From NCBI GenBank assembly GCA_017516345.1, contig JAFXDC010000002.1:1-60113 (forward strand): 60,113 bases of DNA, written 5' to 3'. The notes below the pieces were generated by a model. That model was not told where the DNA came from, ran no database searches, and worked only from the letters and a program-made list of their open reading frames with translations. Origin of the DNA: Clostridia bacterium. GTDB taxonomy: Bacteria; Bacillota; Clostridia; Christensenellales; QALW01. Positions 41,094-46,860 of this stretch are shown one piece after another; position 1 is the first letter of the stretch; each line of letters begins with the position of its first letter. The translations under genes and the position numbers were made by a program.

Positions 41094-42242
41094 ATGAATT
41101 TTTTGGGTATTAAATTCAAAAAAATTGAATATATCGTCCCCGCACTTGTATTGGTGCTGGTGCTGGTGGGCTTTGTTGCCCTTACCATAGCCACCGCAAG
41201 CCCCTTTACCGGGGAGGAGCTCACCTTCGGCGAGATAATGGCGAATCTTGATTTCTCCATCGTGGGACTTCAAGCCATATTCTTTGTTATAGGTGTGGCT
41301 ATAATGCTTGTGCTTATGTTTGTTGATTACCGCATCTACAGTAAGATATGGTTTCTTGTCCTGCTTGTCGGCCTTGCGCTTCTGGGACTTGTTGCGGTGT
41401 TCGGAAGTGCGTTGGGCGGCACAAAGGGGTGGATATATATCGGCTCCTTTACGGTACAGCCCTCTGAGATAGTCAAGCTTGCCATGATACTTGTCTGCGC
41501 TAAATTTCTTGCAGAGAGCCCGCTTGAAAAATTTACAGATGTGCTTCCCGCGGTTGGTGTGTTCGTTGCCATAATAGCGGTACTACTGTATCAGATGGAC
41601 ATCGGAACCACTATAGTTTACGTGGTTGCCTTCGTTGGCATGGCATTTCTTGCAGGTATGAAGCTTCGTCATATGGGGATATTTGCCGGGGCAGCACTTG
41701 CGTTCGGAGTCTTTGCGTGGTTTGTTCTGCTTGGACCAAAGCAACAGTCCAGAATAATAAACTTCTTTAACCGTACCGGAGACAGCGATGCCTTCCTTCA
41801 GCTCAATCACTCCATAGCCGCCATAGGCTCGGGCGGTTTTGCGGGGAAGGGGCTCTTCAGCGTGGGTGCACTCAGTCAGCTTGATTATGTTCCCGTGCTC
41901 GAGACCGACTTTATTTTCGTTGCCATTGCTGAATCCTTCGGGTTTGTGGGATGCTTTATATTGCTTGTTATCTATGCCGTGCTGATATTCAGGCTTTTCC
42001 TCATCGCACGCCGTACGGAGGACAGATTCGGTGCCATTATAATCTACGGTATAATGTTTATGCTCATGTTCCACGTCTTTGAAAATATCGGTATGACCAT
42101 AGGCATAATGCCCATAACCGGCATTCCCTTGCCCTTTATAAGCAAGGGGGGAACAAGCATGATAACAAATATGGCGGCTATAGGTTTGGTGTTGTCGGTG
42201 TGCTACCATGCGCCCGATAAGGAGAGAGAATCCACCCTTTAA
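41094..42242 (+). CDS. rodA: SEDS peptidoglycan polymerase, RodA-type
   Basis: The 382-aa protein has about ten membrane segments and SEDS blocks KGWIYIGSFTVQPSE, ETDFIFVAIAESFG and the closing PLPFISKGGTSM. It polymerises glycan strands for cell elongation together with a class B PBP. It lies just after minD-minE, a common cell-shape neighbourhood. Roda rather than FtsW is suggested by this context, though FtsW cannot be fully excluded. The start follows AAAAGGAC. Confidence 0.88.
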   Translation: MNFLGIKFKKIEYIVPALVLVLVLVGFVALTIATASPFTGEELTFGEIMANLDFSIVGLQAIFFVIGVAIMLVLMFVDYRIYSKIWFLVLLVGLALLGLVAVFGSALGGTKGWIYIGSFTVQPSEIVKLAMILVCAKFLAESPLEKFTDVLPAVGVFVAIIAVLLYQMDIGTTIVYVVAFVGMAFLAGMKLRHMGIFAGAALAFGVFAWFVLLGPKQQSRIINFFNRTGDSDAFLQLNHSIAAIGSGGFAGKGLFSVGALSQLDYVPVLETDFIFVAIAESFGFVGCFILLVIYAVLIFRLFLIARRTEDRFGAIIIYGIMFMLMFHVFENIGMTIGIMPITGIPLPFISKGGTSMITNMAAIGLVLSVCYHAPDKERESTL

Positions 42243-42350: not shown

Positions 42351-42379
42351 TTGTTTTTTTGAATTGTTTGTGATATAAT
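42351..42379 (+). promoter_or_regulatory. Promoter of the OLE RNA
   Basis: TTGTTT (42351-42356), 17 bases, TATAAT (42374-42379). Transcription would begin near 42386. Confidence 0.7.
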
Positions 42380-42385
42380 AATTTT

Positions 42386-42965
42386 GGTGGTACAGTATTC
42401 TAGTCAGCATTGGTTGTCTTGAAGGCGGGGCTAAAATATCGTCAAAGGGCATATCGATGAAGTTTCTGGTGCAGGCTTGAAACGCCCAGTTTTGGGTCTG
42501 TGCTGGGAGTTAAGGAGGACGGGCGATCCGCAATGGCATGCGGGCGTTGACCCAGCCTCCGTGGAGACATACTTGGGTAGCTGTCTGCTCAGGCAGATGC
42601 TACTGGGTATGAAGAACCTGCTATGCGGTGGCTTTGCCGCTGTGTACAGTGTAGCCTGTCTTGAAGTGGTAATGAGGGAAATGGGAATACGCAGCTGCGT
42701 CCACGGCCATGGAGCTGTCTGCGATGGCCCTTTGAAATCCTTACTGCAAAAGAGACTAGGGACAGTCTCTGCTGTCGGGGAAATCCCCTAGACTGATCGT
42801 CTGTTATGGATTATAGTGTGGTCTAAGTGGTTATCGAGCGCAAGCGTCAGTGATGCGTTTGTGCGGTCTTTAAAGGGAAACCGCTTCATCGGCGACGGGG
42901 AGCAGACCGTAGGGAAATCCGGCTCGACCTAAGCCGCAAGGTTTACAGGGCAGACTGCCACCTTA
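42386..42965 (+). ncRNA. OLE RNA (ornate large extremophilic RNA)
   Basis: This 580-base non-coding stretch lies directly before oapA in the dxs-nadK-argR-recN neighbourhood where OLE RNAs of Firmicutes are known. It is packed with stems: 42574-42608 (GTAGC..GCTAC around TCAG), 42751-42770 (AGAGACT/AGTCTCT), 42863-42884 (GCGGT/ACCGC) and GGGGAAATCCCC near 42778. Its length is close to the roughly 600 bases of known OLE RNAs. OLE forms a membrane-linked ribonucleoprotein with OapA and OapB and supports growth under cold, alcohol or metal stress in Bacillus halodurans. I call it from gene context, size and structure; a covariance-model search was not run. Both ends are approximate. Confidence 0.88.
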
Positions 42966-43023
42966 TTTTTTATATTTCAAACGGCATATGCCGTATGCTC
43001 TTTTTCACAAGCGGAGAACAATA

Positions 43024-43581
43024 ATGAAAATTAAAGAAAAGCATAATAAAAAGAATTCGGGAGCGCGATGGACTGCAACCGTTACGGTTTTGTCCTTTGT
43101 GCTTACCGTTATTTTTTCATTTTTGGCGGAATCAGTAACCGAGGCGGCATCTGTGGTGCTGTCCGTGTTGATAATCCTTGTGCTCATTATAATAAGCATA
43201 ATAGCAGATATTGTGGGTACTGCGGTCACCGTGTGTGACGCGACCCCTCTTGCGGCAATGTCCAGCCGTAAGGTGAGGGGAGCAAAATCTGCGTTAAGGC
43301 TTATCCATAACAGCGAAAAGGTAGCAAGCGTGTGCTGTGATGTGATCGGTGATATCTGCGGTATCGTAACAGGTGCCGCAACCACTGCAATAGTGTATAT
43401 GATAATCTCCTCCGGCGGCGAGGGAGCCCGTCTTTGGATATCCATCCTGCTCAGCGCCTCGGTAGCATGTCTCACCATAGGAGGAAAGGCTTTTGGCAAA
43501 AAGCTCGCACATAAAAAAAGTAAGGATATCGTGTATCTGATAGGAAGAGTATTTTCTATAGCCGATAAGAGTGATAAATAA
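43024..43581 (+). CDS. oapA: OLE-associated protein OapA
   Basis: The 185-aa membrane protein has four predicted segments (about 16-35, 42-64, 110-128, 135-153). A conserved polar block lies between the second and third, IADIVGTAV then ATPLAAMSSRKVRGAK, then HNSEKVASVC and DVIGDICGI. This is the OapA family, often annotated as CorB-like. It binds the OLE RNA and places it at the membrane. Start ATG 43024 has GGAG seven bases upstream; an ATG at 42988 is in frame but lies in the RNA's 3' flank. It overlaps the start of dxs. Confidence 0.93.
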   Translation: MKIKEKHNKKNSGARWTATVTVLSFVLTVIFSFLAESVTEAASVVLSVLIILVLIIISIIADIVGTAVTVCDATPLAAMSSRKVRGAKSALRLIHNSEKVASVCCDVIGDICGIVTGAATTAIVYMIISSGGEGARLWISILLSASVACLTIGGKAFGKKLAHKKSKDIVYLIGRVFSIADKSDK

Positions 43582-45382
43582 CGTGTATTGCATAAGTGAC
43601 GTTAAAAAAATGAATATTGCTCAGCTCAATGATGCCGCAAGGGAAATACGAGAGGAGCTTGTGCGGGCTACAGATCAAAACGGGGGACATCTTGCCTCGA
43701 ATCTCGGGACCGTAGAGCTTACCCTGGCGCTTCATTGCGTTTTTGATTCCCCACGCGATAAGATGGTTTTCGACGTTGGACATCAGGCGTATACCCATAA
43801 GCTGCTTACGGGCAGAAGCCTCGAGGGTATGCGCCACGCAAACGGAGTCAGCGGATTCCCCGATTTTAACGAAAGTGAGCATGATCCGTTTATCGTGGGA
43901 CATAGCGCAACCGCCGTCTCCACCGCTCTGGGACTAGCGCGCGCAAGGGATATAAAGGATGAGGATTTTCATATAATTGCAGTCGTGGGGGACGGTGCCT
44001 TCGGAGGAGGAATGAATCTTGAGGCGGTAAACGACCTTGGATTTAACCCTACAAGACTTATAATTGTGCTTAACGATAACGGTATGTCCATCTCCCGTAA
44101 CGTTGGTGCGCTCAGCAGACATATGCTCAAGCTTCGTACCGCAAAGGGCTACGTAGGCTTCAAAAAGGGGATGGAACGCTTTTTAAAGGGACTTCCGTGT
44201 GGGAATTTCATCTTTAAAGCCGCGCTTAACGTTAAAAACTTCTTCAGACGTATGCTTATCGGCACCACTGTGTTTGATAATATGGGTATTAAGTTCATCG
44301 GTTCGGTGGACGGACACAATATCCCGGAGCTTAAAAATATCCTCCAAAGAGCAAAGGAAGAGACTGTGCCGGTGCTGGTGCAGATCCGTACCCTGAAGGG
44401 TAAGGGAGCTGAAAAGGCGGAAAATGATCCTGTAGCCTACCACGGTGTGGCTTCCGCGCTCGCAAACGGTAAAAAGGAGAAGACCTTTACCAAAAGCTTT
44501 GGTGCGTTTCTTACGGATATGGCACGGGAAAACGAAAAAATATGCGCCATTACTGCAGGAATGACCGATTCTACGGGTCTTAGAGCCTTTGCAGATGCGC
44601 ATCACGACAGATTCTTTGATGTCGGCATTGCCGAGCAGCATGCCTTCGGACTTGCCGCGGGGCTTGCCAAGGGGGGGATGCGCCCCGTTGTTGCGATATA
44701 TTCCACATTCCTTCAGCGCGGTGCGGATCAGATATTCCACGATATTGCCCTTCAACGGCTTCCGGTGGTGATGTGCATCGACCGCGCGGGCTTTGTGGGT
44801 CAGGACGGACAGACTCATCAGGGCGCATACGATATAGCCATACTCAGGGCACAGGGAATAAAGATCATGGCACCGGCAGATCCGTATCAGCTTAAACAGA
44901 TGCTTAATTATGCATTCACTCTTGATGTCCCTTGTGCTATAAGGTACCCAAAGGGAGGCGGATGCTGCTTGCCGCAGTGCGAGCTTGTCCCGGACAGATG
45001 GCAGAGTGTCAAAAAGGGAGAGGATTGTATCATCGTAACCTTTGGGGCATTGCTTTCTCAGGCCTTAGAGGCGGCGGGGCTCCTTGAAGCGGAAGGAATA
45101 AGTGTAGAGGTTGTAAATGCCTGCTTCCTGGCTCCTGATGCCCAATACATAAAGGATATCACTGCAAACAGCCTTTTCGTGCTTGAGGACAACGCATACG
45201 CAGGTGGGCTTGCCGAGGCTATAGCCGGTCTTGTGCAGAATAATGAGAGTATAAAACACTTTGCTTCGGTAAGCGGCGAGGCGGGCTTTAATATCCATGA
45301 TGATGTTTTCGCTCAGCTTAAAGCAGCAGGACTTGACGCGGCTTCCATAGCTGAGCTTGTTAAAAATACCGTTCGCACTTAG
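43571..45382 (+). CDS. dxs: 1-deoxy-D-xylulose-5-phosphate synthase
   Basis: The 603-aa protein is a thiamine-diphosphate enzyme. It condenses pyruvate and glyceraldehyde 3-phosphate in the first step of the MEP isoprenoid pathway. Visible marks are SHLA-type start block GGHLASNLG, the ThDP/Mg site GDGAFGGGMNLEAVND, the catalytic Glu in IAEQHAFGLAAGLA and the C-terminal transketolase domain. The start is unclear: GTG 43571 overlaps oapA, GTG 43583 is close, and ATG 43610 would drop conserved residues. The slight shortness compared with about 620-640 aa is in loops. Confidence 0.95.
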   Translation: MINNVYCISDVKKMNIAQLNDAAREIREELVRATDQNGGHLASNLGTVELTLALHCVFDSPRDKMVFDVGHQAYTHKLLTGRSLEGMRHANGVSGFPDFNESEHDPFIVGHSATAVSTALGLARARDIKDEDFHIIAVVGDGAFGGGMNLEAVNDLGFNPTRLIIVLNDNGMSISRNVGALSRHMLKLRTAKGYVGFKKGMERFLKGLPCGNFIFKAALNVKNFFRRMLIGTTVFDNMGIKFIGSVDGHNIPELKNILQRAKEETVPVLVQIRTLKGKGAEKAENDPVAYHGVASALANGKKEKTFTKSFGAFLTDMARENEKICAITAGMTDSTGLRAFADAHHDRFFDVGIAEQHAFGLAAGLAKGGMRPVVAIYSTFLQRGADQIFHDIALQRLPVVMCIDRAGFVGQDGQTHQGAYDIAILRAQGIKIMAPADPYQLKQMLNYAFTLDVPCAIRYPKGGGCCLPQCELVPDRWQSVKKGEDCIIVTFGALLSQALEAAGLLEAEGISVEVVNACFLAPDAQYIKDITANSLFVLEDNAYAGGLAEAIAGLVQNNESIKHFASVSGEAGFNIHDDVFAQLKAAGLDAASIAELVKNTVRT

Positions 45383-46410: not shown

Positions 46411-46860
46411 ATGAAAGCATCACGACAGATAAGGATTTTAGAGCTTATTAAGAATAAGAGCATCCAGACTCAGGAGGAGCTTGCTAATGCTCTTAAAAAC
46501 GAAGGCTATGACGTAACTCAGGCCACCGTCTCAAGGGATATTAAGGAGCTTAATCTGATCAAGACCATTTCGGCCGACGGTAGCTATCGCTACAGCGTTG
46601 TAAGCGGAGTCAAGCAGGATCAACAGGATAGACTCCACAAAATATTTGCCAGCACCGTCCTTAAGGTGCAAAGTGCAAACAATATCATCGTGCTTAAGAC
46701 CATGCAGGGAAGTGCCAATACTGTTGCGGTGGTGATAGACTCGTTAAATAATGACGATATCCTTGGCTCGGTTGCCGGAGATGACACCGTTATTATAATT
46801 GTCCGCTCCAACGAAAAGGTGGCAAGCATAGAGAATCTTATTAAGGATCTGATCCGTTAA
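46411..46860 (+). CDS. argR: Arginine repressor
   Basis: The 149-aa protein has an N-terminal winged helix (about 1-70, with QATVSRDIKELNLIK) and a C-terminal oligomerisation and arginine-binding domain (SVAGDDTVIIIV). It represses arginine biosynthesis and may activate catabolism when arginine is bound. It lies between nadK and recN, as in Bacillus. Start ATG follows AGGAT. Confidence 0.94.
   Translation: MKASRQIRILELIKNKSIQTQEELANALKNEGYDVTQATVSRDIKELNLIKTISADGSYRYSVVSGVKQDQQDRLHKIFASTVLKVQSANNIIVLKTMQGSANTVAVVIDSLNNDDILGSVAGDDTVIIIVRSNEKVASIENLIKDLIR

Follow-up and report, generated by a model that had tools for sequence, protein, structure and literature searches.

An OLE RNA gene and its oapA in a Clostridia genome, and related OapA proteins that may act without OLE

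The DNA studied here, called the window, is a stretch of 60,113 nucleotides from a Clostridia bacterium (contig JAFXDC010000002.1), in which the gene of an OLE RNA is followed by oapA, encoding the OLE-associated protein A. The region upstream of OLE contains minD, a RodA/FtsW family gene, whose place is taken by ispA in several relatives, and a weak match to minE. Downstream of oapA, the gene order is dxs, nadK, argR and recN. The following features were assigned:

41094-42242 (+): RodA/FtsW family gene, upstream of OLE (PF01098, 278.5 bits)
42371-42379 (+): TGATATAAT, TGnTATAAT extended -10 box, likely OLE promoter, from the sequence and a -10-like box in relatives
42371-42977 (+): OLE RNA gene, full-length RF01071 match, conserved 5' end at 42387
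42447-42462 (+): GGGCATATCGATGAAG, putative 5' part of the OapC kink-turn region, by conserved pattern in the RF01071 alignment
42705-42708 (+): GGCC in the loop corresponding to L9.3, by RF01071 alignment and pattern
42890-42897 (+): P13 loop CGGCGACG, by RF01071 alignment and pattern
42981-42994 (+): small hairpin resembling a terminator, with a T-rich stretch after it, in the gap from OLE to oapA (weak)
43024-43581 (+): oapA, membrane protein of 185 aa with DxxxD, adjoining OLE
43246-43287 (+): loop motif P75-x3-M79-[AS]-[SA]-R82-K83-x-x-G86-A87-K88, oapA codons 75-88, kept with OLE and decayed upon loss of OLE in f6 and f28
43339-43353 (+): DxxxD motif, oapA codons 106-110, invariant with or without OLE
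43571-45382 (+): dxs, directly 3' of oapA (TIGR00204, 611 bits)

The Rfam covariance model of OLE (RF01071) aligned from its position 1 to 616 with nucleotides 42371-42977 of the plus strand and gave 475.3 bits (E 2.2e-136) at a gathering cut-off of 50, which assigns the RNA to the OLE class. The initial annotation, which had located an OLE RNA at about 42390-42960 and proposed this search, was thus confirmed over the full model, and its coordinates for OLE and oapA were correct. Its description of a structured non-coding gene directly before oapA is borne out by the fold energy of the OLE strand, which was below that of all 100 dinucleotide shuffles (z -3.2), and by the position of oapA. The conserved 5' end, GTGGTACAGTATTCTAGTCAG, begins at 42387. 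In the OLE RNA of H. halodurans, the region corresponding to GGGCATATCGATGAAG forms the OapC kink turn (PMC9723947); L9.3 is described as the symmetric kissing loop of the OLE dimer (PMC12286853), and the P13 loop lies within the region bound by OapB (PMC9723947, PMC12054373). Judged by sequence pattern and model alignment, both the P13 loop and the kink-turn region appear intact. In model length, 5' end, kink-turn region, L9.3 GGCC and P13 loop, the window copy matches the full-length RF01071 type; it shows nothing distinctive and falls outside the shortened TANB77 and RF39 variants that PMC11332333 describes. With the OLE model, no second copy was detected in the same genome (1.61 Mb in 68 contigs, 70% complete), and no OLE match was obtained among phage records. 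An open reading frame for 104 amino acids (42477-42791) sits entirely inside the structured RNA and was therefore taken as a probable chance occurrence, not as a gene.

OLE is likely to have its own promoter, as the initial annotation had claimed. TGATATAAT is a perfect -10 box with a TG extension and ends 7 nt upstream of the OLE 5' end, and a -10-like box is present in the 20 nt before this end in 38 of the 53 relatives sharing the conserved OLE 5' end, compared to 8% of random 20-mers. On the other hand, the assignment goes no further than likely, since the -35 region is weak and the site was not listed by a consensus promoter scan. Terminator-like sites in the region numbered three, with 1.5 expected.

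The oapA gene starts about 60 nt downstream of the OLE RNA and is preceded by a plausible ribosome-binding site. Its product is hydrophobic, contains the DxxxD motif (D106-D110) and the basic loop and shares with known OapA proteins the length of 185 residues and the position downstream of OLE. It is 76% identical to OapA of a genome of the same genus (G001) and shows ordinary divergence only. A solved structure related to OapA was not found by sequence search. The membrane domain of OapA is distantly similar to that of the MpfA/CorC-type Mg2+ exporters with a CNNM domain, a weak relation that has already been published (PMC11332333), and the Pfam CNNM model indeed matched the window protein with 23.3 bits (E 5.5e-5). 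That the protein is an ordinary CNNM/MpfA fragment is nevertheless extremely improbable. The score is below the Pfam cut-off of 28.4, the combination typical of an MpfA/CNNM transporter (CNNM above cut-off together with CBS and CorC domains) was not found, and the protein of only 185 residues has neither a CBS nor a CorC domain. Moreover, it possesses DxxxD, which CNNM domains lack according to PMC11332333, and it adjoins OLE in most relatives. The argR gene at 46411-46860 lies about 3 kb past OLE; binding of ArgR to OLE is mentioned as unpublished in PMC12054373.

With regard to the partner proteins, the initial annotation had advised to look for OapB elsewhere in the genome. It is present directly upstream of infA (G000:C4) and matches PDB entry 7k9b, the solved structure of 'OLE-associated protein B', with E 4.5e-9. 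An OapB-like protein also precedes infA in genus g2, which possesses neither OLE nor OapA, and this fits the published view of further OapB roles. Matches to the L7Ae family (PF01248) were absent from the 70%-complete window genome, whose rpsL region, the expected site of oapC, is missing. The congener G001 likewise lacks the rpsL region, and the neighbours of its one PF01248 match point to YlxQ.

Among 151 relatives, OLE was detected in 82, OapA in 96 and both in 80 genomes, not counting two weak OapA hits with E near 5e-4 that are likely to be CNNM proteins. In a second sample, comprising 80 OapA loci of named genomes, a long OLE match was nearby in 75 cases and a fragment in one more. Since the pair is so common among relatives, and since a GTDB-wide survey has already counted 2,822 OLE RNAs in Bacillota, uncultured gut clades included (PMC11332333), the OLE/oapA pair of the window is an unremarkable, full-length representative of a known class. 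Of the suggestion that it is of special interest in a host-associated anaerobe, the origin can be retained: the genome falls in a clade of anaerobic Clostridia and the named relatives found via OapA include MAGs from rumen, caecum and poultry, so that a gut origin is likely. The presumed unusualness does not stand, given the gut-clade OLE RNAs reported in that survey. A Gut-1 RNA (RF01706) at 116-191 of the minus strand (63.8 bits), near the contig edge, fits a gut origin as well. In some relatives, OLE and oapA occupy separate sites (L066, L067 and L114-L120 of families f13 and f30; G435 and G407 of f100), with about 200 kb between them on one contig in G435. At locus L188 (1194-1350), a 3' fragment of OLE is fused to the reading frame of an ABC-transporter ATPase before an oapA, which is probably a chimeric assembly.

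CorC_HlyC, used as a proxy for MpfA, was found in 19 of 82 genomes with OLE and in 53 of 69 without (Fisher p 3e-11, kinship ignored). Within the family of the window, OLE and OapA occur in genus g1, which is without CorC, while genus g2 has neither OLE nor OapA and carries CorC in two of three genomes. Similarly, in family f24 the OLE-less genome G136 gave two CorC matches and its OLE-containing sister G073 none. This tendency towards mutual exclusion agrees with the anticorrelation of OLE and MpfA published in PMC11332333.

OapA without detectable OLE was initially seen in 16 genomes. Two of them (G100 and G104) were set aside because their OapA loops are intact and the assemblies are incomplete or have oapA at a contig edge. 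The remaining 14 all belong to the order of the window: six of family f6, two of f8, five of f28, and G136 of f24. In G073, the order is ispA-OLE-oapA-tlyA, whereas its sister G136 has ispA-oapA-tlyA with 66 nt between ispA and oapA. The arrangement is ispA-oapA-dxs in f6 (G009), and in f8 oapA is likewise preceded by ispA; the gap between the two genes is about 30-120 nt in f6, f8 and G136 and contains no OLE. In f28, proS and an L20-leader-like element preceding infC flank a second oapA, and two genomes of this family (G054 and G137, loci L064 and L065) contain it in addition to an OLE with its own oapA. OLE-less OapA genes or second copies away from OLE were recorded at L048-L055 and L058-L065 (f6, f8, f28, G136), with DxxxD intact. 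The OapA tree showed four changes of the OLE label, corresponding to about four losses, of which at least three are forced by well-supported branches. In a class-wide sample, comparison of the lists by eye indicated that all genomes with a strong OapA outside the window's order also have OLE.

It might be argued that these genomes do contain OLE, either beyond the reach of the Rfam model through divergence or missed because of gaps in the assemblies. G100 and G104 may be such cases, and five of the 80 named loci had no full OLE nearby. The loop is kept in all five, and OLE was found elsewhere in the genome in two (L174, L194) and as a fragment in one, the two without any OLE having oapA at a contig edge. 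For the 14 genomes, however, this explanation is improbable. Completeness of the f6 and f28 genomes is 96-100%. Infernal with laxer filters gave no OLE at E <= 10 in any of the 14, a search around oapA of the OLE-less genomes gave none at E <= 0.5, and the distance from ispA to oapA is short in f6, f8 and G136. A 21-nt signature of the OLE 5' end, with three mismatches allowed, was recovered from each of the eight OLE-containing genomes searched and was absent from all 14. Decay of the OapA loop in f6 and f28 also fits true loss.

This loop is located before the third hydrophobic segment. In 78 OapA proteins from OLE-containing genomes it reads P-x3-M-[AS]-[SA]-[RK]-[KR], with the stated letters in 95-100% at each position. 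It is scrambled in the OLE-less copies of f6 and f28, intermediate in f8 and mostly kept in G136. By contrast, D62, D106, G109, D110, G117, K155 and K159 are invariant in 50 of 50 aligned OapA rows, OLE-less ones included. In a scoring of segments that excluded the family of the row being scored, the median of the loop (16 residues) dropped by about 56 bits, from 37.7 with OLE to -18.5 without, while the DxxxD segment scored 55.3 and 48.5, respectively, and two other segments fell by 3 and 9 bits; some OLE-containing families also have low loop scores (f9 11.5, f31 14.7), as low as f8. A simplified basic-loop pattern was recovered in 67 of the 75 OLE-containing rows among the named loci, with Bacilli relatives showing K instead of M, or H, D or Q at basic positions. 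Purifying selection acts on OapA in the absence of OLE as well: dN/dS of pairs was 0.07, 0.15 and 0.23, compared to 0.07-0.13 for pairs with OLE.

Loop decay could also reflect general drift and then be uninformative on RNA binding. The independent losses of OLE are few, part of the loop is retained in f8 and G136, and the other segments are slightly lower in OLE-less rows as well, which makes this a possibility to be taken seriously, albeit an unlikely one. Against it stand the size of the drop in the loop relative to the 3-9 bits of the three other segments and the invariance of D62, D106, D110, G117, K155 and K159. In addition, in the f28 genomes with two oapA copies, the motif is kept in the copy adjacent to OLE and lost only from the other. 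A basic cluster on the cytoplasmic face of OapA was earlier suspected of RNA binding (PMC12265935), and in H. halodurans changes at both OapA aspartates are reported to cause severe phenotypes (PMC9723947).

Taken together, the window harbors an OLE gene accompanied by its own oapA, both in a short cluster that includes dxs. As judged from the sequence, it very probably specifies an OLE ribonucleoprotein of the known type, in which OapA would consist of two parts. By analogy to the published accounts of H. halodurans and C. acetobutylicum, OLE RNA would dimerize, OapA would hold it at the membrane, and OapB, probably also OapC, would bind it; the particle may tune stress and divalent-metal handling and partly substitute for an MpfA-type Mg2+ exporter. 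The basic loop of OapA (residues 75-88) would serve the RNA, as its fate in relatives suggests. Its membrane core with DxxxD would function without OLE, most likely in ion transport in view of the likeness to CNNM. That these two parts are separable is suggested by the decay of the loop along with OLE loss while core residues stay invariant. We also favor, with more reserve, the view that in several lineages the operon lost OLE or a duplicated copy of oapA parted from the RNA, the loop then decaying, the DxxxD core being kept and OapA working alone. According to a published suggestion (PMC11332333), neither OLE nor OapA may ever be found without the other. In the OLE literature considered, OLE-less OapA was not met, though its novelty is not certain.

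The OLE and oapA genes of the window are ordinary in themselves and the interest lies in the contrast with their relatives. If OapA does persist alone, the suggestion made in PMC11332333 that the two may never be apart would be contradicted and need changing, and the RNA-binding part of OapA would be separated from its transport part. The loop motif that decays with the loss of OLE would be a specific candidate for the contact with the RNA. With natural OLE-less OapA proteins, the function of OapA by itself and the contribution of the RNA could be addressed directly.
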